Shown: in pieces, positions 7,642-45,544 of the stretch
Numbering within the stretch: position 1 is the stretch's first letter
How the letters are laid out: each line of letters starts with the position of its first letter
Source of the DNA: Rhodobacter xanthinilyticus
GTDB lineage: Bacteria > Pseudomonadota > Alphaproteobacteria > Rhodobacterales > Rhodobacteraceae
Assembly: GCF_001856665.1 (NCBI RefSeq)
Contig: NZ_CP017782.1
Span: 62,001-126,000 of the forward strand
Reading direction: 5' to 3'
DNA length: 64,000 bases
Translations under genes and position numbers: made by a program
Notes under the pieces: generated by a model
What the model was told of the DNA's origin: nothing
Seen by the model: only the letters and a program-made list of their open reading frames with translations
Database searches by the model: none

Positions 7642-9185
7642 AGCCGGAAATTCTGAACCGCATCGCTCTGCGCCACCGTTTGCTTTCGCGGATGACGCTT
7701 GGTTTCGCCGCCGGGGCGATGACCGTTCTGACTTTCCCGCCTCATTCGATTCTCCTGCTCGTTCCCGTTGCCTATTCCGCGTTGTTTGTCGGGCTTCGCG
7801 ATCTCTCCTTCGGGCGCGCTTTCCTCGTCGGCTGGGCGTTTGGTCTCGGCCAGTTCGGTTTCGGGATTTGGTGGATCGCGGAAAGTTTCTACGTCGAGGC
7901 CGAGCGGTTTGGGACGATGGCGATTCCGGCGGTCGCGGGATTGTCCGCAGGTCTCGCGATTTTCCCAGCCATTGCCGCTGCGCTTTTTGCCGAAATCGCG
8001 CGGCGCGGAGCCATGGGCAGTCTCTTGGCCTGCCTCCTGTTCGCGACCTCCTGGACCGTGGCCGAGTGGTTGCGTGGTCACGTTCTGACAGGGTTTCCCT
8101 GGAACCTGGCCGGTTACGCACTTGTAGACTACGCCGCCCTTCGCCAGACCGCCGCCTGGGTCGGAAGCTATGGGCTAAGCTTTCTCACCGTGTTCGTCGC
8201 GGTACTCCCTGGCGCGGCTGCTATGGCGTCCGGGCGGCAACGATTGACCATCTCGCTCATGGCGCTGGCCGGAATCGCGACGATGTGGGCTGTCGGCACG
8301 CTGCGCCTCCAGTCGGATGCACAACAGCCACCCGGTGTCGACCTGCGCATCGTCCAGGGCAACATTCCACAAGAGGAGAAATGGGCTCCCGAGAACCGCG
8401 AGGCGACCTTCGCGCGCTATCTTGAGCTTTCAACCCGGCCCGGCGATTTCGACGTGCTTCTCTGGCCGGAAACCGCCTTTCCGGGTTTCCTCGATGAGGA
8501 TACGGAGGCACGGGCCCGCATTGCCGCAGCGCTACCAGACGGCAGAGTGCTGCTTACCGGTGTGCCGGACCGTGTACCGAGCGAGGATGGCACCCGATAT
8601 TTCAACACGGTCCAGGCATTTGACGAGACCGGCGAGATCCTGACCGGATACGCGAAACACCATCTCGTGCCCTTCGGCGAATATGTGCCATTCCGCGGCT
8701 GGTTGCCCATCGAGCGGCTCACGGCGGGTCTGGGCGATTTTACGCCCGGACCGGGCCCGAGAACGCTTGCGCTTCCGGGTGTGCCGCTGGTCGCCGTGGC
8801 GATCTGCTATGAGATCATCTTCCCAGGGCATGTGGTCGACGACCTGTTCCGGCCGGACTGGATTTTCAACGCGACAAACGATGCCTGGTTTGGCACCAGC
8901 ATCGGACCCGAGCAGCATCTGGCTTCCGCACGTATGCGCGCCGTAGAGGAAGGCCTTCCAGTCATCCGAGCCGCGAATACGGGCATCTCTGCGGTCATCG
9001 ACGCGAGCGGAGAGATCGTTGCGCGGCTCGATACCGGCGAAACGGGCATCGTCGACGCTAGCCTGCCCTCCGCGCGACCGCCGACACTCTACGCGAGCTT
9101 CGGGGACTGGATGCTGTTGGCGCTCATCTTGGCTTCGTGGAGCTGGGCAATGGCGCCAATGCGACGGCTCACTACCGCCGCATGA
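7638..9185 (+). CDS. lnt: Apolipoprotein N-acyltransferase
   Basis: A 515-aa protein using a GTG start at 7638 that overlaps the lspA stop (GTGA). The N-terminal part (1-200) has about six helices. The C-terminal nitrilase domain carries the Glu-Lys-Cys triad: LLWPETAFP, YAKHHLVPFGEYVPF and VAICYEIIFP. Lnt adds the third acyl chain to lipoproteins in the inner membrane. Pairing lnt with lspA on a plasmid metal island is unusual, since both are normally single chromosomal genes; no lgt is present here. It ends ten bases before a convergent gene. Confidence 0.9.
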   Translation: MKPEILNRIALRHRLLSRMTLGFAAGAMTVLTFPPHSILLLVPVAYSALFVGLRDLSFGRAFLVGWAFGLGQFGFGIWWIAESFYVEAERFGTMAIPAVAGLSAGLAIFPAIAAALFAEIARRGAMGSLLACLLFATSWTVAEWLRGHVLTGFPWNLAGYALVDYAALRQTAAWVGSYGLSFLTVFVAVLPGAAAMASGRQRLTISLMALAGIATMWAVGTLRLQSDAQQPPGVDLRIVQGNIPQEEKWAPENREATFARYLELSTRPGDFDVLLWPETAFPGFLDEDTEARARIAAALPDGRVLLTGVPDRVPSEDGTRYFNTVQAFDETGEILTGYAKHHLVPFGEYVPFRGWLPIERLTAGLGDFTPGPGPRTLALPGVPLVAVAICYEIIFPGHVVDDLFRPDWIFNATNDAWFGTSIGPEQHLASARMRAVEEGLPVIRAANTGISAVIDASGEIVARLDTGETGIVDASLPSARPPTLYASFGDWMLLALILASWSWAMAPMRRLTTAA

Positions 9186-9194
9186 GAAAGACCG

Positions 9195-9707
9195 TCATGC
9201 AAAGATGTGGATAGGTGTCCCGTCCTTCACCATTGCATAGATGTCCTCGATCTCCCGATCCGTGACCGCGATGCAGCCAGCTGTCCAGTCGCGGACATTT
9301 GTCGGGTCGATGCCGGGGCGTGGGCCACCATGGATGAAGATGTCGCCGCCGGGGGAAAGGCCCTGCGCTTCGGCAAAGGCGATGTCGGCCTCGTTCGGAT
9401 AAGAGATGCCAATCGAAAGATGGTAGGTGCTGTTGGGGTTTCGCCTGTCGATTGTGTAAACTCCTTCCGGAGTCCGGCCATCCCCCTCGAATTGTTTGTG
9501 ACCCTCAGGAGCGAAACCCAGCCCGACCGGATAGGTTTGCAAGACGCGATCGGCTCCGTCGAGAACAAGCAAGCGCTGTCCCTTGTAAAGCCGAACACGG
9601 GTGACTTCGGGTCCGTCATAGCTGCGGAACTTGCTGGCACACCCGGACAGAAACGCTACCAGCCCGCCCAACAGGACGGCGCGGCGGGGAAATCGGATGG
9701 TTTTCAC
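9195..9707 (-). CDS. L,D-transpeptidase lipoprotein (YkuD domain)
   Basis: A 170-aa protein with a lipobox (LSGC) after a short signal sequence, so it is a predicted lipoprotein and a possible substrate for the neighbouring LspA/Lnt. The YkuD catalytic motif HGG-(17 residues)-GCIAV is complete with the nucleophile Cys. L,D-transpeptidases form 3-3 cross-links or attach proteins to peptidoglycan. It is convergent with lnt. A second, distinct YkuD protein is encoded at 12640. Confidence 0.88.
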   Translation of the reverse strand: MKTIRFPRRAVLLGGLVAFLSGCASKFRSYDGPEVTRVRLYKGQRLLVLDGADRVLQTYPVGLGFAPEGHKQFEGDGRTPEGVYTIDRRNPNSTYHLSIGISYPNEADIAFAEAQGLSPGGDIFIHGGPRPGIDPTNVRDWTAGCIAVTDREIEDIYAMVKDGTPIHIFA

Positions 9708-9770
9708 TGCTCGATGCCTCTTTCGTGAGGTCTGTTATGGACATTACGTTACCTTGCAAATGCTGCGTGA

Positions 9771-12125
9771 TCAATGTCCGTGGGCAAGCGCGGCCTTTGC
9801 CATCTGTGGGCCAACCTGCTCACCGCCGGACGGCGGCGCCTTGGCCTCTTGGCTGTTCAGCAGGCGCAGGGCATTGGCCACCACCAGCAATGACACTCCT
9901 ACGTCGGCTGCAATCGCGCCCCACATCGATGCCAGTCCGAACGCGGTAGCGACAACGAAAACGCCCTTGGTCGCCAAGGAAATACCGATGTTCTGATGAA
10001 TGATCGACATTGTCCGGCGCGAATGACCGATCAGCCAAGGCACCTTGCCGAGATCGTCGGTCATCAGGGCTATATCCGCCGTCTCGATTGCCGCGTCCGA
10101 ACCAACGGCACCCATTGCGATGGCGTAATGCGCGCGCGCCATGGCCGGGGCGTCGTTGACCCCGTCGCCGATCATGGCCACCATGTCATGCGTTTCGACC
10201 AGTTCTTCGATGGCAGTCACCTTGTCTTCGGGCAGAAGCTCGGCACGGACCTCGTCGATGCCGACCTCGGCTGCAACAGCGCGCGCTGTCCGCTCGTTAT
10301 CACCGGTCAGCATGACGATGGTCTTCACACCCTGCGCGTGAAGCTGCGCCACGATGCCTTTGGCATCCGGGCGGATACGGTCGCGCAATTCCAAGATGCC
10401 GGTGACACCGGTGTCGTCGCCCACGGCAACAAGGGTGCTGCCAGCCCCTTCGATGCGGTCGCGCAAATCCTTCGGAATGGCGTCGCCGAAACCCTTCTCC
10501 TCGGCAAACCGGTCCGACCCCAGCCAGATCGACCGGCCGTCTGTGCGTCCTTCAAGTCCCCTGCCCGGAACGGTTCGGGTATCTTCCGCGGCGGATACCT
10601 TGATGCCGTCGGCTTCTGCCCGCGCAAGAATGGCGCGCGCCAAGGGATGCGAGGAACGTGCCTCCAGCCCAGCGGCGAGGGTCATCAGATCTTGCGCCGA
10701 TGCTTTGCCCAGCGGATGCACCGCCGCCACCTCGGGCTCGCCCATGGTGATCGTGCCGGTCTTGTCCATGGCCAGTGCAGTGGTCTTGCCCGGTGCCTCA
10801 ACATATGCACCGCCCTTGATCAGCACCCCGGCCCGCGCTGAGGCGGTGAGTGCAGCGACGATGGAGACCGGTGTCGAGATGACCAGAGCGCATGGGCAAG
10901 CGATCACCAGCAGCACGAGTGCATTGTAGAACCAATAATCCCAGGCCCCCCCGAAAATGAGCGGCGGCAGCAGGGCAATTGCAATGGCGAGAGCCATGAC
11001 GATAGGCGTATAGATGCGGGCGAATTTCGCCACCCACTGCTCCACCGGCGCGCGGCGGGCATGGGCGTCGCCGACCATGCGGATAATCTTGGCCAACACG
11101 GTGTCCGAGGCGGCCTTCGTGGCGCGCACCGTCAGTGTGCCTTCGCCGTTGATCGTACCGGCATAGACTTCGTCGCCCCGTTCCTTTGGGACCAGCGCAC
11201 TCTCTCCGGTGATCGGCGCCTGATCGACGGCCCCTGCCCCATCGACAACCTCACCATCCAATGGGATGCGGTCTCCGCCGCGCACGATGAAACGTGCGTT
11301 GATAGCAACCGCAGAAGCCGGAACGTCCGCTTCCGAGCCGTCATCATGAAGAACTCTTGCCGTCGGCGGCGCGAGGTCGAGCAGAGCTGAAACCGCATTC
11401 CTCGCACGCCCGACGCTCCAGCTTTCGAGGTAGAGCGAGAGCGAAAAGAAGAACGCGACTGTCGCCGCCTCGAAAAATTCGCCAAGCCCGATGGCACCGG
11501 CCACGGCGACCACCATGAGCAGGTTCATGTCGGGCGACAGCCGCCGAGCGGACGACCATGCCTTGGGTGCCACGAGCCAGACACCGAACAGGATCGCAAC
11601 CGCGAACAGCCCTGCCTCGACCAGTGGCATCGGCGCTTCGCCGTGACCCGCGAAGAGGCCGAGCGCCCCGCCCATGCCGGTCTCGATGATGTGCCACAGA
11701 AATCCTGCGGCCCAGAAGCCTCCACTGAGCGCCGTAAACAGCCGCTGTCTTGCAAGATGGGCCGCCTGGTCGACCGACGCGTTCTCGGCATCCCAAGGCT
11801 TGGCGGTCATGCCGGTGCTTGCGACCAGTTCTGCAATTTCGCCGTCCGATAAACTCTTGGCGCTGTCGAGAATAGTCATCCGCCCATTGATCACGTCGAA
11901 CGCGAGATGCTCGGCCCCGCCGATCTTCGGGCCGACCACCTTGTTCAGGATTGCTACCTCCTCGGCGCAATCGAGGCCGGACACCTGAAAACTGCGCCCG
12001 CCCGATGGCGCGGGCGTCGTCGGAACGATGTCGCCGCACGTTCCGGCGCCCCCGCAGCAGCTGCCGCCGCTTGTCTGGGCATCTTCGGCGTGATCGTGGT
12101 CGTGACGATGGGTGTCGGACGGCAT
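9771..12125 (-). CDS. Heavy-metal P1B-type ATPase (Zn/Cd/Pb exporter)
   Basis: A 784-aa pump. The N-terminus is rich in His and Cys (GGSCCGGAGTCG) and is followed by a heavy-metal domain with SGLDCAEEVA. Core P-type motifs are present: the transmembrane CPC in IACPCALVIS, the phosphorylation loop DKTGT, HP in SSHPLARAI, and the hinge GDGVNDAPA. CPC together with a DCxxE-type N-terminal site is typical of ZntA/CadA/PbrA pumps. It has its own MerR-type promoter (12158-12188) right upstream. It is likely the main metal exporter of the island. Confidence 0.92.
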   Translation of the reverse strand: MPSDTHRHDHDHAEDAQTSGGSCCGGAGTCGDIVPTTPAPSGGRSFQVSGLDCAEEVAILNKVVGPKIGGAEHLAFDVINGRMTILDSAKSLSDGEIAELVASTGMTAKPWDAENASVDQAAHLARQRLFTALSGGFWAAGFLWHIIETGMGGALGLFAGHGEAPMPLVEAGLFAVAILFGVWLVAPKAWSSARRLSPDMNLLMVVAVAGAIGLGEFFEAATVAFFFSLSLYLESWSVGRARNAVSALLDLAPPTARVLHDDGSEADVPASAVAINARFIVRGGDRIPLDGEVVDGAGAVDQAPITGESALVPKERGDEVYAGTINGEGTLTVRATKAASDTVLAKIIRMVGDAHARRAPVEQWVAKFARIYTPIVMALAIAIALLPPLIFGGAWDYWFYNALVLLVIACPCALVISTPVSIVAALTASARAGVLIKGGAYVEAPGKTTALAMDKTGTITMGEPEVAAVHPLGKASAQDLMTLAAGLEARSSHPLARAILARAEADGIKVSAAEDTRTVPGRGLEGRTDGRSIWLGSDRFAEEKGFGDAIPKDLRDRIEGAGSTLVAVGDDTGVTGILELRDRIRPDAKGIVAQLHAQGVKTIVMLTGDNERTARAVAAEVGIDEVRAELLPEDKVTAIEELVETHDMVAMIGDGVNDAPAMARAHYAIAMGAVGSDAAIETADIALMTDDLGKVPWLIGHSRRTMSIIHQNIGISLATKGVFVVATAFGLASMWGAIAADVGVSLLVVANALRLLNSQEAKAPPSGGEQVGPQMAKAALAHGH

Positions 12126-37011: not shown

Positions 37012-38255
37012 ATGTTCGAAGAAATCTTCCTCGCACCGGCGGCGGCAAAGCACCGCAATGCGCCGCTCGCCGATCTAAGGGCAGGATACCTTCTACAACT
37101 CAAAGCAGGTGGGGCACGGCGCACCACACTGCGAAAGCATGCGAATGCCCATCTCAACCTCGTGCGGCTTCTGGACCTTCGCGATCACGACAGGATTAGC
37201 CAGAATGAGATCGAAACCGCCGCCAGGCTCTGGGCCAATCCCGAAGGTCGCAGATTTGACCGGGAGGCCACAAGTAAGGCCAAGCAGCGCTTCATCAGCC
37301 ATTGCTCAGACCTTCTGCATCACCTTGGCTGGATCGAAGCCGATGACGCGGTCCATCCCTGTGCCGCAGAACTCAGTACCTACGAAACCTGGTTGCGCAA
37401 GGAGCGGGGCCTCTCCCCCGAAACGGTTCGTGGTTACTGTCACGCGGCTGGCCACTTCCTGACCCGGATTGCGGCGCGCGGCATTCTGATCGGCGCGCTT
37501 TCGATAGCTGATATTGACGATATCATTGGTGATGAACATCGCCGCGGCGTCTGGAGCCGAAGAACGCTCCACGACTACGCGCAGCGCCTCAGAGCATTCA
37601 TCGCCTTTGCCGAAAAGCGCAAATGGTGTCGCCCGGGTTTGGGCGCAGGTATCGTCGCCCCGAGATACAGGGTTGACGAGGTATTGCCGAAGGGGATCGA
37701 GCGCAACGACGTCGAGCGGCTTATGGATTCGGTCTGCGGGGGCGCATTGTCGATCTGCGTGATCGGGCGATCCTCATGCTGTTCACATCCTACGGTTTGC
37801 GTGTCGCTGAGGTAGCGGGCCTGCGCCTCGATGACTTCGATTGGGACGCTGAAATGCTTCGAGTCCGATGCCCGAAGCCGGGTCGGACCCAGCTCTGGCC
37901 GCTATTTCAGGAAGTTGGGCAGGCGATCCTGGACTACTTCCAGCATGGGCGGCCTACAGGTTACGGGCGCGCTGTCTTCTTCACCTCGCGGGCGCCGATC
38001 CGTCCCTTGGATCGCAAAGCATTGGGAAAAATCGTTCGCGATAGACTCGCGACAATCGGCGTCGTGACGGGCCGGCGAGGCCCACATGCACTCCGGCATG
38101 CAGCCGCCCAACACCTTATGGATCGCGGCATGTCGATGAAAGTCATCGGAGACTTCCTCGGCCATCGCGATCCGTCTTCAACGGCGATTTATGCGAAGGT
38201 CGACTTGGCAGCCTTACGTGAGGCGGCAGCCCTCGAACTGGAGGGCCTGCTATGA
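37012..38255 (+). pseudogene. RIT recombinase A (frameshifted)
   Basis: The start at 37012 has AAGGAG upstream. The N-terminal SAM-like domain (LSPETVRGYCHAAGHFL) reads to about residue 242, then the frame breaks in a run of five G at 37738-37742. The other frame continues RIVDLRDRAILMLFTSYGLRVAEVAGL, HALRHAAAQHLMDRG and LGHRDPSSTAIYAKVD, with Arg, HxxR, His and Tyr all present. One added or two removed G would restore about 415 aa. The downstream recombinase starts in the stop codon, so the trio is one operon. It may be a real inactivation, a sequencing error or programmed slippage. Confidence 0.82.
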
Positions 38256-39208
38256 AACTGGGAGTTGCGATTGAGCACTACGTCGAATGGCGACAAGCAC
38301 ATGGTGCGAAGTTCACGACGGCACGGAACCTCTTGCGGCAGTTCCTGCGCCACGTCGGTGACGAAATAGAATGCGACGACATATCGACGGACCAGGTGCT
38401 GAGCTTTTTGATTGGTCAGGGACCTAGAACCCGGCATCGCGACAGCAAAGCTTATGCTCTGGCGGGCTTTTGGAGATTTGCAATCAGTCGCGATTACGCC
38501 GGCTCTTCGCCGCTCCCCGCAAGCGAAGGACCGCGACCCTTGCTGGCTCCACCTCATATTTACAGTCGCATACAGTTGCAGCGTCTCTTCGATCTTCGAA
38601 ACATCGAGATCGCATTGGGCCGCGCGAAGCAACTCGACCCAATCACGTTCCGCACATTGCTCTTGCTGCTCTATGGCGCCGGGCTGCGCTACAGCGAGGC
38701 AACCGGCCTCGCGCGTGAAAATGTCGACATGTCAACTTCCGTCCTGACGATCCGGGATACCAAATTCCAAAAAAGCAGGTTGGTACCATTCGGATTGTCC
38801 CTCGCGAAAGTGCTTGTCGACCACCTGTTGCAGCCTGCGGGAAAGCGATATGCGAAGGATGGTACTGCGTTCTTGCTGTCGAATAGGGACGGCACGCGGC
38901 TCGCCAGCAGCACCGTTCAGGCTGCGTTCGACCGGCTACGGCGCACTGCGGACGTCCGTGGTAGCGTGGGTGGTAGAGTAGCGCCGCGCCTGCACGATCT
39001 CCGACACACCTTCGCCGTTCACAGGCTGACCACTTGGTATAGGCAGGGCGCAGATGTGCAACGGCTGATGCCGGTGCTGTCCACCTACCTCGGGCACTCC
39101 GATCTGGAAGGCACCAAGATCTACCTGACGATGACCCCGGAACTCTTGAGCCAAGCGTCGAGACGATTTGCGCTCTATGCCCATGGAGGTGATGATGCCC
39201 GAGCGTGA
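38252..39208 (+). CDS. RIT recombinase B (tyrosine recombinase)
   Basis: A 318-aa phage-integrase family protein. It has an N-terminal core-binding domain and catalytic residues Arg in YGAGLRYSEATGLA, HDLRHTFAVHRL, His in LGHSDLEGT and Tyr in KIYLTMTPE. It overlaps recombinase A (ATGA) and C. In RIT elements the three proteins are all needed or co-inherited; individual roles are not settled. Confidence 0.88.
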   Translation: MKLGVAIEHYVEWRQAHGAKFTTARNLLRQFLRHVGDEIECDDISTDQVLSFLIGQGPRTRHRDSKAYALAGFWRFAISRDYAGSSPLPASEGPRPLLAPPHIYSRIQLQRLFDLRNIEIALGRAKQLDPITFRTLLLLLYGAGLRYSEATGLARENVDMSTSVLTIRDTKFQKSRLVPFGLSLAKVLVDHLLQPAGKRYAKDGTAFLLSNRDGTRLASSTVQAAFDRLRRTADVRGSVGGRVAPRLHDLRHTFAVHRLTTWYRQGADVQRLMPVLSTYLGHSDLEGTKIYLTMTPELLSQASRRFALYAHGGDDARA

Positions 39209-40190
39209 TCTTCTTGGCCCCTGGCTTCGGCGTTTCCTGACCGAATTCATCGTTACCGAGCGAAACCTGGCCCGAAATACGCGTGCCAGCTATCGTGATA
39301 CCTTCCGCCTGTTCCTGCCATTTGCCAGCCGAAAGCTGAGAAAACCCGTTGACAGGTTGACGGTGCGTGACCTTGCATCAGGGCTCGTTCTAAAGTTCCT
39401 CTCGCATGTGGAGGACGACCGCGGATGTTCAGTCCGTACCCGCAATCAACGACTTGCCGCAATAAAAGCCTTTGCCCGCTTTATTGGCAGCAGAGATCCG
39501 GCGCATATCGAGTGGTGCGGGCATATCCGCGCCATCTCGTCGAAGAAAACCATGCAGCCATCTGTTGGATGGCTGACTCGGTCGGAAATGGAGGCGATGC
39601 TTGCGGTGCCGGATAGGAAGACGGAACGGGGGCAGCACGAATACGCGCTCCTGCTCTTCCTTTACAACACCGGCGCGCGCGTGTCCGAGGCAACAGAGCT
39701 GAAGGTGCAGGATCTGTCGCTTGCCGCCCGGAGGGGCGGCCATGATCTTGCGACCCTTCATGGGAAAGGCGGCAAGATCCGCCAGTGCCCGTTGTGGCCG
39801 GAAACCGAGCGGGCTCTTGCGCACGAAATCCGTGAACGCGAAATGGACGCACCTGTTTTTGTCAGCAGGCTGGGGACAGGGTTTACGCGCTTCGGGGTCT
39901 ATCGCCTGATTGAGCGCTGTGCTGCGCAAGTTCCAGCGCTCGCTGGCCGCACGATCACGCCGCATGTGATCCGACATACGACCGCCTGCCATCTGGTTCT
40001 TGCCGGGGTAGACATCAACACCATCCGCGCCTGGCTTGGGCATGTGTCGATCAGCACGACCAACATTTATGCCGAGATCGACCTAACGCTGAAAGCCAAC
40101 GCCGTTGCGCTATGCGAAGTCGGCCAACAGAGGCCAGGGCGCTCGTGGAAGGAGGACAAAGACCTGATGGCGTTCCTGAAATCGCTGTAG
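39195..40190 (+). CDS. RIT recombinase C (tyrosine recombinase)
   Basis: A 331-aa protein. The ATG at 39195 follows GGAGG by five bases and overlaps recombinase B by 14 bp. Catalytic residues: Arg in NTGARVSEATEL, HVIRHTTACHLVLAG, His in LGHVSISTT and Tyr in NIYAEIDL. It ends 13 bp before the right inverted repeat. Confidence 0.88.
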   Translation: MPERDLLGPWLRRFLTEFIVTERNLARNTRASYRDTFRLFLPFASRKLRKPVDRLTVRDLASGLVLKFLSHVEDDRGCSVRTRNQRLAAIKAFARFIGSRDPAHIEWCGHIRAISSKKTMQPSVGWLTRSEMEAMLAVPDRKTERGQHEYALLLFLYNTGARVSEATELKVQDLSLAARRGGHDLATLHGKGGKIRQCPLWPETERALAHEIREREMDAPVFVSRLGTGFTRFGVYRLIERCAAQVPALAGRTITPHVIRHTTACHLVLAGVDINTIRAWLGHVSISTTNIYAEIDLTLKANAVALCEVGQQRPGRSWKEDKDLMAFLKSL

Positions 40191-41365: not shown

Positions 41366-41395
41366 GGTATTATGTGGAATTCCACATAATACCGA
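41364..41395. repeat. 32-bp perfect palindrome at the right end of the RIT element
   Basis: Perfect inverted repeat centred between 41379 and 41380 (arm TCGGTATTATGTGGAA). It is absent from the left end. It may be two recombinase half-sites joined head to head, as expected for an end junction, or a leftover of an earlier excision. Confidence 0.85.
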
Positions 41396-42230
41396 TGGGG
41401 CCACAGGCGAGCATGGCGATCTCCTCGATATCATCCGCGCCCGGACGGGGATCACGCGCTTCCCCGACCTTGTCGCCGAGGCCCGAGCGCATCTTGGCCG
41501 TCCGCAGCCGGTCGTCCCGGATAGGCAAGAGCCGAGGAAGGCCAAGGCGCCCGGTGGCACTCCTGCGGCGGCGGTGCGCTTGTTTGCTGCCTCGAACCCG
41601 ATCACAGGCACGCTTGCTGAGACCTACCTCCGTTCCCGAGGCATCACCCAATTCGGGGCGAACGGCGCCTTACGCTTCCACCCGAAGTGCTGGCATCGGG
41701 AAGAGGGGCAGACCCAGAGCATCCCCAGACCGGCGATGATCGCGGCGGTCACCGATGGGGCAGGGGCCGTGCAGGGCGTGCATCGCACCTGGCTGGCGCC
41801 TGACGGACAGGGGAAGGCGGCAGTGAATCCACAGCGTCGGGCTATGGGTCACCTCCTCGGCAATGCCGTTAGGCTGACCTCGCAGGATGACATCCTCGTC
41901 GTCGGCGAAGGCATCGAGACCATGCTGTCCCTGTCCGAGGCAATCCCAGGTCTGCCCGTCTGGGCGGCACTCTCTTCGGGTCACCTCGGGGTGGTCCAGC
42001 TGCCGGAGGGGCTGAAGCGCCTCTACATCGCGATCGATCGCGATCCGGCCGGGCAGCGCGCGGCAGAGAAGTTGAGCGACAGAGCCTCCGAGGTCGGGAT
42101 TGGTTGCCATGTGCTGGAACCGCGGCTAGGGGATTTCAACGATGATCTTCGGGCGAACGGCAAGGACGCGCTGCGCCAGCATCTGGCAGGTCAGATCGGG
42201 CCAGAGGATCGGTATCGCCTGCCCAGCTGA
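41394..42230 (+). pseudogene. Host toprim gene, 3' part (codons 66 to end)
   Basis: From GAT at 41394 the frame reads DGATGEHGDLLDIIRARTG and onward to FNDDLRANGKDALRQHL. The toprim Glu is in VVGEGIETMLSLSEAI and the DxD in LYIAIDRDPAGQRA. It joins exactly to codon 65 at 35788. It may still be expressed from an internal ATG (41574), lacking the N-terminal domain. Confidence 0.88.
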
Positions 42231-42340
42231 GCTGCATCGCGCAGGGGGGCTGGGAGTGCGGGGCAGGGGGCTGCATCCCAGTCGTGGCTCTGGATCGTCG
42301 TCGTCACCTCATCCCGGGCCTTGCGCATCCACCCGTCAGC

Positions 42341-42553
42341 CCTGCGCGGCCTTCAAGAGATGGGCAGGCCGTCAAAGCGGTTGCCCCTGCAAGGTCGGCA
42401 GGGAACCTATTTCCGCCGGCGGCAAAGCCGCCTTTGCATCGCGAGACAAATAGCTTCCCTGCCGACCTCCTCCACGCTGTTCCGGCCCCGGTGAAGCCGG
42501 GGTGAAGGGGCAACCGCCCGACGGCTCGGGTCTGCCCATGAAGGCCGCGCGGG
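42341..42553 (+). ncRNA. Large nested-helix structured RNA candidate upstream of DUF2493
   Basis: Five successive helices nest around one axis. P1: CTGCGCGGCCTTC-type arms 42341-42354 with 42540-42553. P2: ATGGGCAG/CTGCCCAT (42360-42367, 42532-42539). P3: GCCGTC/GACGGC (42368-42373, 42520-42525). P4: GCGGTTGCCCC/GGGGCAACCGC (42377-42387, 42507-42517). P5: a 20-bp arm with one mismatch (42393-42412, 42448-42467). Within the P5 loop is GGCGGC/GCCGCC, and between P5 and P4 a CCCCGG/CCGGGG hairpin (42486-42502). It ends 39 bases before the DUF2493 start. The rest of 42231-42340 shows nothing else. Confidence 0.7.
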
Positions 42554-42592
42554 ATGACGCGCGGACGAGACAGGCCCGGAGGCAAGAAACCG

Positions 42593-43525
42593 ATGACGAT
42601 CCACACCCGCGACGACGCGTATGAACCCGCCCACACCGCATCCCAGACCGCCCATGCGCTCGACGAGCTGCAGCTCTATGGCTACCGCCCCTTTGACGAG
42701 CCCGATCCGCGTCCGATGCCAGATGGGCAGCGCCTCGCCGTCGCCGTCGCCGACATCTTCGACGCCCTCGTTGCGACCCTCGAAGACACCCGCATGGAAC
42801 CCGACCTCGAAGAGGTGCTCTGGGGCCAGGTCAACCTCTTCCACCGCGCCACGGCCCGGATCGAGCGGACGCTCGATGAGAACGAGCAGGCGCAGCGCCG
42901 CCTCCAGCGCGAGCAGGACGGCTCCGAAGTGAAGTCCGTCGAACTCGAGCGCCTGACGGCCGAAGGCCTGACTCTCGTTGAACGGCGCAACTGCATGGAC
43001 ATGATGCGCGATCACGCGGCCACCGAGTTCGTCCATCACACGGGATCGACCTGGCGCCCCCGCACCGGCTCGATGGTGAACCGCCAGCACATGACCGCCG
43101 CCCTGATCGACAGCCGCGACTTCCTGGCCGCCAAGCGCCGCGCCGAGACCGAGGTAATGCTTCCCGCAGGCCCCAAGGTCGCCCTCACCGGCGGGACCGA
43201 TTTCAATGATCACCGCCTGATCTGGGGCAAGCTCGACCAGGTCCGGACTAAGTATCCCGACATGGTCCTCCTGCACGGTGGCAGCCCGAAGGGCGCAGAG
43301 CTCATCGCCGCCAAATGGGCCGAAGCCCGGGGCGTGACGCAGGTGGCCTTCAAGCCCGACTGGACCAAGCACGCCAAGGCCGCGCCCTTCAAGCGCAACG
43401 ACGCGATGCTGGATGTGCTCCCGGTCGGGGTCCTTGTCTTCCCCGGAACCGGTATCCAGGAAAACCTCGCCGACAAGGCCAAGAAGCTCGGCATCCCGGT
43501 CATGAAGTTCGAGAAGGGGGCGTGA
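42593..43525 (+). CDS. DUF2493 domain protein
   Basis: A 310-aa protein. The start at 42593 has GGAGG upstream. The N-terminal helical part (1-190) has a coiled segment (ERTLDENEQAQRRLQREQ). The C-terminal Rossmann-like DUF2493 domain (about 198-310) includes VALTGGTDFNDHRLIWGKLD, LLHGGSPKGAELIAAKWAE and VLVFPGTGIQENLADKAKKLG. DUF2493 belongs to the SLOG/DprA-like nucleotide-binding superfamily. It is a frequent neighbour of toprim and strawberry-notch genes on these plasmids. The role is unknown. Confidence 0.82.
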   Translation: MTIHTRDDAYEPAHTASQTAHALDELQLYGYRPFDEPDPRPMPDGQRLAVAVADIFDALVATLEDTRMEPDLEEVLWGQVNLFHRATARIERTLDENEQAQRRLQREQDGSEVKSVELERLTAEGLTLVERRNCMDMMRDHAATEFVHHTGSTWRPRTGSMVNRQHMTAALIDSRDFLAAKRRAETEVMLPAGPKVALTGGTDFNDHRLIWGKLDQVRTKYPDMVLLHGGSPKGAELIAAKWAEARGVTQVAFKPDWTKHAKAAPFKRNDAMLDVLPVGVLVFPGTGIQENLADKAKKLGIPVMKFEKGA

Positions 43526-43609: not shown

Positions 43610-43876
43610 ATGTTCGACACATCGCAGCAAATGGAAGTGTTCCCGACGACGGTCGATCTCAAGCGGATCGACCCGTCTCTCAACATGCGGCGCTTCTATC
43701 GAATGAGCGTTCAGCCGGACCTGTTTGGCGGCGCATGCCTCGTGCGGGAATGGGGCCGTATCGGGTTTCGAGGGCAGATGCTAATCGAACGGCACCCAGA
43801 CGAGGGGCATGCTGTGACCGAGCTACTGAAGCTTGCAGCGACGAAGCATCGCCGAGGATACTTACGTTCGAGCTAG
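43610..43876 (+). CDS. WGR-domain protein
   Basis: An 88-aa protein that is essentially one WGR domain: MSVQPDLFGGACLVREWGRIG then RGQMLIERHPDEGHAVTELLKLAATKHRRGY. WGR domains occur in PARPs and MolR-type proteins and bind nucleic acid. Stand-alone versions are common on rhizobial and roseobacter plasmids. The following 43877-44059 has no gene I can support. Confidence 0.82.
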   Translation: MFDTSQQMEVFPTTVDLKRIDPSLNMRRFYRMSVQPDLFGGACLVREWGRIGFRGQMLIERHPDEGHAVTELLKLAATKHRRGYLRSS

Positions 43877-44222: not shown

Positions 44223-45146
44223 TCATGCCGCCATTTTGAACCCTTTGGCGGCGTCGGTTTCAAGGGCCTTCTGTTCGGCCCTGATCTGATCGGGCGTTTT
44301 GTAGCCGTGCCGTTCCCGCAGCCATGATGCGTTGTATCGCGCGGCGAAGGCGGCCAAAGCATGCCTGAGCTCTTCGACGGTCACAAAATGGCGGACCCAG
44401 AGCAGTTGCTCCTTGAGGGTGCGTATGGCCCGTTCGGCCACCCCATTGCCCTCGGGCTGGCGCACGAAAGCTGGTGAACTGGTGATCCCGAAGCATTTGA
44501 TCTCGCTCTGGAAGTCTTCTGACATGTAGTTCGATCCGTGGTCGTGCCGCAGGATCAGGCCGAGGGCCGTATCCGGCCCGATACAGCCGAAGTGCCGGGT
44601 GACGCCCTGACGGATCGGTTCCAGCGCCTCCCACCGGCTGGCACTTGAAGACGCATGGGTGCCGACGAACTCGCCCGAGCAATGATCCACCGCGATGAAC
44701 ACGTAGGCCCGTCCCTCCCCGATGGTGACCGTCTGGGTCATGTCCGTGCCCCAGACCTGATCGACCCGCTCAGTGACGATCGTCCCGTCATGGGGATGCG
44801 CATCCCGCTGGACGGGTCGCTGAGGTGCCAGAAGGTCGTTCTCCTTCATGACCCGCCGCACCCGACGGGGGGCGGTACAGACGCCCAGATGCCGAAGCCG
44901 CGCCCATATCTTCCGGTAGCCTTCCCCGGAAAACGGCGAGGCTTCGATGATGGCCTCGATATGCTCCAGAAGCGCGCTGTCGCTGCAGGCCCCCTCCGGA
45001 CCACGACGACGTGGCGGCCGCGCCTCATTGGCGGCATTGCCCGTAACACGATGCCGGTACACCGTCGCCCGGGGGACCCCCCAGATGTTGCAGACACGCG
45101 TCGTCCCGTAGCGCCGGTGCGTGGAGATCGAGTGCGCCTGGCTCAT
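44223..45146 (-). CDS. IS3-family transposase OrfB (copy 2)
   Basis: Protein identical to the OrfB at 27608-28531, with the same DDE residues and the same four-base overlap with OrfA. Likely active. Confidence 0.92.
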   Translation of the reverse strand: MSQAHSISTHRRYGTTRVCNIWGVPRATVYRHRVTGNAANEARPPRRRGPEGACSDSALLEHIEAIIEASPFSGEGYRKIWARLRHLGVCTAPRRVRRVMKENDLLAPQRPVQRDAHPHDGTIVTERVDQVWGTDMTQTVTIGEGRAYVFIAVDHCSGEFVGTHASSSASRWEALEPIRQGVTRHFGCIGPDTALGLILRHDHGSNYMSEDFQSEIKCFGITSSPAFVRQPEGNGVAERAIRTLKEQLLWVRHFVTVEELRHALAAFAARYNASWLRERHGYKTPDQIRAEQKALETDAAKGFKMAA

Positions 45147-45544
45147 GTCCTCGACCTCCGCCGGGCCAAAGGGCGGCCGCCCTCCAGCTTGTCGATCTTC
45201 GCGTACAGCAACTCGTTGGCCATGGTGATCTCGCCCACCTTGGCCTGCAGCCGCGCAATCTCGTCGTCACGCTCATCGCGCTCGCGTTCCTTCAGCGCAC
45301 TCTCGGCCGCCATGAGCACCCGGTCGCGCCATTCGGACAGCCGGTGAACCGGAACGTTCAGGTCCCGCGACACCGCCTCCAAGCTCTCACCCCGCATGAG
45401 CCGCTGAACCGCCACGAGTTTGCGCTTCGCCGAAAGGCGCCTGGCAGGACCGGCCACGGCCCCGCCGTCGCCAGCGTGATGGGCGCGCGCCGACGGGGCC
45501 GTGGCCTCCGTCGCACCTGAGGTGTCGTCGATCTTCTTGTCCAT
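45143..45544 (-). CDS. IS3-family OrfA (copy 2)
   Basis: Protein identical to the OrfA at 28528-28929. Confidence 0.9.
   Translation of the reverse strand: MDKKIDDTSGATEATAPSARAHHAGDGGAVAGPARRLSAKRKLVAVQRLMRGESLEAVSRDLNVPVHRLSEWRDRVLMAAESALKERERDERDDEIARLQAKVGEITMANELLYAKIDKLEGGRPLARRRSRT

Follow-up and report, generated by a model that had tools for sequence, protein, structure and literature searches.

Single-stranded-DNA promoters are best known from enterobacterial plasmids. Frpo, 328 bp in length (PMC7690428), is described as a site where RNA polymerase starts on the folded transfer strand (PMC7690428, PMC11541004), and Frpo and ssi sites are also described as priming sites (PMC7690428). 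Transcription from single-stranded DNA has been reported for the leading regions of F and ColIb-P9 (PMC7690428, PMC7314908, PMC11541004); for RP4, leading operons are reported to be induced early, and single-stranded-DNA promoters were not identified there by the authors (PMC7314908). A 2024 survey of leading regions describes Frpo-like sites found by similarity and by a -35/-10 search, and the words Alphaproteobacteria, DUF2493 and DUF736 are all absent from its main text (PMC11541004). Candidate single-stranded-DNA promoters are also reported for an insect-metagenome element (PMC11541004), and the term 'ssDNA promoter' appears in a paper on pLS20 of Bacillus (PMC8708921).

The window, a stretch of 64,000 nt from Rhodobacter xanthinilyticus, carries a folded element of about 325 nt, close in size to Frpo, with a long nested hairpin and an A+T tract near its tip, as in Frpo. 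The Frpo of F folds better on the T-strand: the region upstream of F ssb, which we took as Frpo, reaches -172.5 on that strand versus -152.1 on the complement (shuffle difference -6.4, sd 5.2). As with Frpo and ssi, the site precedes genes that are directed towards the transfer genes and lie on their strand. It differs in that the genes behind it are DUF2493 and DUF736, its hosts are alphaproteobacterial and it is known from sequence alone. No match to the element was found in E. coli genomes (near mode), and its 41 plasmid matches (blastn, distant mode) include no enterobacterial record; among the records listed for a search with F Frpo, at least 5000, were enterobacteria, one Pseudomonas and four 'uncultured' entries, with no named alphaproteobacteria. 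No canonical -10 was seen in the stem arm of the element, where the sigma-70 score was 6.37 versus 6.61 for shuffles. The F Frpo control, at 7 versus a shuffle mean of 7.3, was also not above its shuffles, so the scan does not discriminate. In our best reading the element would work like Frpo and ssi; because no sequence homology was found and no -10 is visible with a scan of this kind, we do not file it as a member.

Two other classes of folded single strand invite comparison. In the single-strand origins (sso) of rolling-circle plasmids, RNA priming begins on a folded single strand. A plasmid single-strand origin had been suggested from the sequence of this locus, and its central idea, a function in single-stranded plasmid DNA, comes close to our best explanation; an sso proper differs in hosts and gene placement, since the element occurs on large conjugative plasmids among others and stands before two gene families. 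Integron attC sites function as a folded bottom strand and have a GTT/AAC core pair. The element is much longer, only one of its arms has an invariant TTG, with no mirrored GTT/AAC pair, and neighbouring annotations name tyrosine recombinases, none of them an integron integrase.

Fold and extent of the element

A sequence-only reading of the window had pointed to 213 nt (42341-42553) with nested helices that seemed improbable by chance, and this judgement holds. The plus strand of this stretch folds at -139.3 kcal/mol versus -93.4 for shuffles (sd 5.4; z -8.52) and the minus strand at -141.3 kcal/mol (z -8.88); none of 200 shuffles was as low on either strand, and the inverted repeats lie where they had been placed. 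The extent was right in that the 213 nt fold, but the true element spans about 325 nt (42285-42609, minus strand) and its outer pair had been missed. The outermost helix, 42285-42298 with 42596-42609, comes from the consensus fold of 27 full-length relatives (columns 26-39 and 354-367, mapped onto the window) together with an outer inverted repeat at 42281-42303 and 42591-42613 (23 nt, 83%), which spans the DUF2493 start codon at 42593. Inside it, on the minus strand, helix P1 pairs 42341-42355 with 42539-42553, the two ends of the 213-nt stretch (15 nt, 93%; supported by the fold and the consensus), and a middle helix pairs 42377-42391 with 42503-42517 (15 nt, 93%; consensus fold). The inner helix of 21 bp pairs 42392-42412 with 42448-42468 (21 nt, 95%; consensus fold), and its left arm covaries strongly with its partners (columns 175, 179, 180, 183 and 186-188). 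A local hairpin, CCGCGCG-loop-CGCGCGG at 42545-42564, is conserved in the 27 relatives as well; it shares bases with the right arm of P1, and the two are mutually exclusive.

At the tip (42410-42450) the minus strand reads TTTG..TCGCGATGCAAAG-hairpin-GGCGGAAA, near-invariant in an alignment of 33 sequences and in a pattern scan of GTDB. The core sets collected by pattern have fixed anchors, whose conservation therefore carries no weight of its own, and the mismatch counts are taken from positions beyond the anchors. A minus-strand TTG at 42390-42392 follows the AAA of the tip at a distance of 17-19 nt and is conserved in 62 of 63 representative arms. Judged by its sequence, this TTG could be a -35 core, and the A tract of the tip an UP-like element.

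Compensatory changes in relatives had been set beforehand as a test of the structure, and they were found: across the 27 relatives, double changes that keep pairing occur at 23 of the 101 minus-strand consensus pairs. The sequence-only reading could name no RNA family for the stretch, and none emerged from Rfam at gathering score, either for the whole window or for the locus at a loose threshold (best sub-threshold match, E 2.9).

The strand that folds

When one base of a Watson-Crick pair changes, the mismatch reads G.T on one strand and A.C on its complement; the ratio of the two therefore reveals the folding strand. We counted as flanked those single mismatches with Watson-Crick pairs on either side, and the strand reading and its odds rest on these flanked counts. 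Over pairs 1-18 outward of the tip, read on the minus strand, 60 clusters gave 26 G.T, 2 A.C and 48 others, and 142 cores gave 66 G.T, 4 A.C and 105 others; pair 5 alone supplies 13 of the 26 G.T in the clusters. When the arms were paired with gaps in a strand-neutral manner, flanked mismatches on the minus strand came to 30 G.T, 2 A.C and 53 others (clusters); all mismatches under this pairing (48 G.T, 24 A.C) are less one-sided than the flanked ones. Unflanked counts over pairs 1-8 of the minus strand were 30 G.T and 6 A.C in the 60 clusters and 80 G.T and 11 A.C in the 142 cores. Over pairs 9-18, in a fixed register, they were 29 G.T and 38 A.C (clusters, minus strand), with mismatch runs, internal loops and register shifts in this part of the stem, and between pairs 8 and 15 there are several positions with more A.C than G.T. 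Restricted to pairs common to the two strand predictions (37 full-length rows), the count on the plus strand is 22 A.C, 3 G.T and 22 others within 42341-42553, and 23 A.C, 6 G.T and 31 others within 42275-42620.

Consensus folding of the 27 full-length relatives gave -141.3 kcal/mol with 101 pairs on the minus strand versus -96.7 kcal/mol with 81 pairs on the plus strand, where double changes were kept at 19 of the 81. The energy difference between strands in single sequences (mean -13.3, negative in 38 of 45, versus -7.6 kcal/mol for shuffles) is partly a matter of base composition and was therefore kept out of the main evidence. Evolution supports the minus strand, the template of DUF2493, as the folding strand. 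Both the mismatch asymmetry and the consensus folding favour this strand over the plus strand, from which a large noncoding RNA had been proposed.

These counts bear directly on the idea that the element acts in cis as a regulatory leader of the DUF2493 or DUF736 mRNA (plus strand), such as a riboswitch or an attenuator. The element does occupy a 5′ leader position, with a ribosome site within a fold that is stable on the plus strand too. We give this explanation very little weight, since the stem mismatches would mostly be A.C, and unpaired, in plus RNA (26 versus 2 of the opposite kind), the consensus energy is about 45 kcal/mol weaker than that of the minus strand, and a U-run terminator was not seen by eye in the locus sequence. 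An attenuator in the plus mRNA was also considered as a candidate in itself; it is disfavoured by the mismatch asymmetry.

A structured RNA that is read off the minus strand, runs antisense to the DUF2493 and DUF736 leaders and regulates these genes would show the same preference, as G.U, and deep covariation is typical of RNAs; on grounds of sequence it is the main alternative to a single-stranded-DNA site. The promoter of such an RNA would have to fit into the little sequence that the two unrelated genes have in common in front of their coding parts, and the strict same-strand coupling to relaxase described below would not be expected. Large structured RNAs in Rfam are like the element in length and covariation, but the element has no Rfam match at threshold and its selected strand is the template strand. 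We consider this alternative distinctly improbable, and that the element acts as single-stranded DNA rather than as RNA seems to us highly probable.

Neighbouring genes, relaxase and distribution

The genes assigned to the flanks in the sequence-only reading were confirmed by Pfam. Upstream lies a toprim frame (41574-42230, plus strand; DUF7146 and Toprim_3, PF13362), and downstream the DUF2493 gene (42593-43525, plus strand; YAcAr/SLOG family, 310 aa; PF10686, E 3.2e-30), whose start codon is inside the element and whose Shine-Dalgarno-like GGAGG (42578-42582, plus strand, by eye) lies within the outer fold. A WGR-domain gene follows (43610-43876, plus strand; PF05406), and is found 3′ of DUF2493 in three related plasmids as well. 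On pP73C of Celeribacter the plus-strand order is ssb, radC, strawberry-notch, toprim, element, DUF2493 and WGR; minus-strand genes ending in ParA come next, and then mobC and relaxase on the plus strand.

Of the 148 distinct cores, 143 are followed by 250 nt or more of sequence. Profile searches, with DUF2493 and DUF736 profiles built from clear cases, placed 115 of these before DUF2493, 27 before DUF736 and one (L086) before neither, and Pfam confirmed each family on one example. The tie to DUF2493 alone that had been assumed is thus too narrow. The median distance to the gene match is 108 nt for DUF2493 and 89 nt for DUF736. DUF736 genes are reported on all Mesorhizobium elements with the conjugation cluster of the ICEMlSym-R7A type, often duplicated (PMC8627217), and in ICEMlSym-R7A an rdfS-traF-msi107 operon is described upstream of oriT and the relaxase gene rlxS (PMC11963761).

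The position of the relaxase was counted for 125 copies in 50 genomes, which were hand-picked for contigs longer than about 40 kb from among at least 120 GTDB stretches. A relaxase is on the contig for 90 copies and within 60 kb for 88; the count left out the 35 copies without one on the contig and the two beyond 60 kb, and part of the DUF3363 matches, among the matches listed, entered it. Of the 88 copies, 87 (61 of 62 contigs) have the relaxase downstream, sharing its strand with the gene that the element precedes, and in 75 of the 87 it is within 20 kb; the lone exception is in G421. A set of 50 copies from genomes of the same family and plasmids has a relaxase on the contig for 34 and none there for 16, and the layout agrees in 32 of the 34, the exceptions being the window copy and G361:C5. 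Neighbouring copies less than 12 kb apart share a strand in 21 of 21 pairs.

This regularity speaks against reading the element as palindromic mobile DNA of the MITE or REP type, or as a plain site for a protein that binds double-stranded DNA. The element is palindromic and can occur in several copies per genome, three in its own; a narrow distance to two gene families and a single orientation relative to relaxase do not suit such an origin, and a double-stranded site predicts no strand asymmetry, yet asymmetry was found. Explanations of this type retain next to no probability. Integron attC sites and MITEs, considered as candidates, are rejected on the one-arm TTG, the single orientation and the narrow gene distance.

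That the element is associated with plasmids, as had been expected, is borne out: blastn in distant mode found it in 41 of 72,556 plasmid records, 34 of the matches covering at least 80% of the query. In Haematobacter massiliensis pOT1-5 (L057:8001-9772) an IS110-family transposase gene splits it into parts at 8001-8227 and 9596-9772. Among genomes of the same family it was found in 39 of 394 at E <= 0.001, several by weak partial matches only. The tip pattern was used for a scan of GTDB, which returned at least 120 stretches and shows the element to be widespread in Alphaproteobacteria, with rhizobia, roseobacters, sphingomonads and acetic acid bacteria among the match titles. R1, a model of the minus-strand core built from 33 sequences, was searched against 80 of these stretches, and 74 scored at least 30 bits. 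Below that score were L064, L067, L078 and L107, non-alphaproteobacterial by title (Endozoicomonas, Phocaeicola, Prevotella and Planctomycetota), and L089 and L119, both Hyphomicrobiales. The pattern-based counts given above took in all loci, including the 40 GTDB stretches outside the R1 search, a few of which have non-alphaproteobacterial titles. In evenly drawn samples, at E <= 1e-5, 14 of 289 genomes from the class and 19 of 299 from the phylum carry the element; each of the 19 is from the class of the window, in a sample whose class make-up is not given.

The genome of the window has three copies: the window copy, C2:224099 and C1:3228645. The third, on the largest contig (G000:C1:3228645-3228771), lies about 10.6 kb from a relaxase match that is below the family cut-off (23.8 bits) and in the usual orientation, which suggests that it is part of an integrated conjugative element.

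The window copy itself is atypical: no relaxase lies closer than 99 kb, and the one at that distance is on the other strand. Our conclusions rest on the family and not on this copy. Its element and DUF2493 frame are intact. The module looks cut down, with a short toprim frame (218 aa as listed, versus 343 aa, from coordinates, in the pP73C relative) and a transposase-like frame pair after the WGR gene, seen by eye. This pair, an integrase-core-like protein and a small upstream partner at 44223-45544 on the minus strand, is probably an IS3-type insertion sequence. To the left of the element three consecutive tyrosine-recombinase-like frames (37776-40190, plus strand, by eye) resemble what we take to be a 'recombinases in trio' element, and plasmids of Methylocystis, Gemmobacter, Haematobacter and Pseudorhizobium have annotated recombinase trios close to their toprim/DUF2493 module. 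At 41370-41390, between two toprim frames in opposite directions, frames on both strands begin MEFHIIP, which indicates an inverted repeat near the end of the recombinase island. The window copy may be a relic or part of a composite plasmid.

A putative transfer-strand promoter

On balance we favour the view that the element is a structured site in the single-stranded conjugative T-strand, serving as a promoter and possibly also as a priming site. This view builds on the fold, its covariation, the minus-strand preference, the placement before DUF2493 and DUF736, the relaxase layout and the same-strand repeats. The sequence-only reading as a whole is partly supported. In the literature on DUF2493, DUF736, Frpo and single-stranded-DNA promoters, as represented by titles and the starts of abstracts in open-licence PMC, the element is not described.

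F has the same layout, with ssb, psiB and an antirestriction gene placed upstream of traM on the traM strand, and so does ColIb-P9, with ssb, psiB and ardA upstream of nikA and the relaxase gene nikB on their strand. If oriT lies just before the relaxase gene, as we take it to do in F and ColIb-P9 and as in ICEMlSym-R7A, the minus strand would enter first on the element side; from the layout and the known systems we infer that the minus strand is the T-strand. In the mechanism that we propose, the T-strand would enter the recipient with its leading region single-stranded, and the minus strand would fold into a long nested hairpin whose double-stranded stretches could be used by RNA polymerase or primase. 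The DUF2493 or DUF736 gene behind the hairpin would then be transcribed at once, ahead of second-strand synthesis, and the same start site may prime that synthesis. The minus strand would be both the folding strand and the template of DUF2493 and DUF736, as in the Frpo arrangement.

The folded T-strand might instead be recognised by primase or RNA polymerase for second-strand synthesis only, the placement before DUF2493 and DUF736 being secondary. The evidence on strand and position also fits this, and Frpo and ssi are themselves described as priming sites too (PMC7690428). Priming alone, however, does not require that 142 of 143 copies keep a narrow spacing to members of only two gene families, nor that all 21 pairs of neighbouring copies share a strand, and we think it unlikely as the whole explanation. 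That the site is a promoter, rather than a priming site alone, appears likely to us.

Returning to the single-stranded-DNA promoter, we put forward one extension of it tentatively, as a possibility that we hold somewhat short of even. The element may represent a class-wide alphaproteobacterial family of such promoters, on conjugative plasmids and integrative and conjugative elements alike, unrelated in sequence to Frpo and with a code of its own (a near-invariant TCGCGATGCAAAG tip, a spaced TTG and no sigma-70 -10), which would switch on DUF2493 or DUF736 first in the recipient for establishment or anti-defence.

Beyond this locus, the count of G.T versus A.C single mismatches in stems provides a simple test of which DNA strand folds. 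If the proposed family is real, early expression from transferred single strands would extend to rhizobia, roseobacters, sphingomonads and acetic acid bacteria, and the element would supply a sequence handle for finding leading regions in Alphaproteobacteria. DUF2493 and DUF736, both uncharacterised, would then become candidate establishment or anti-defence families.
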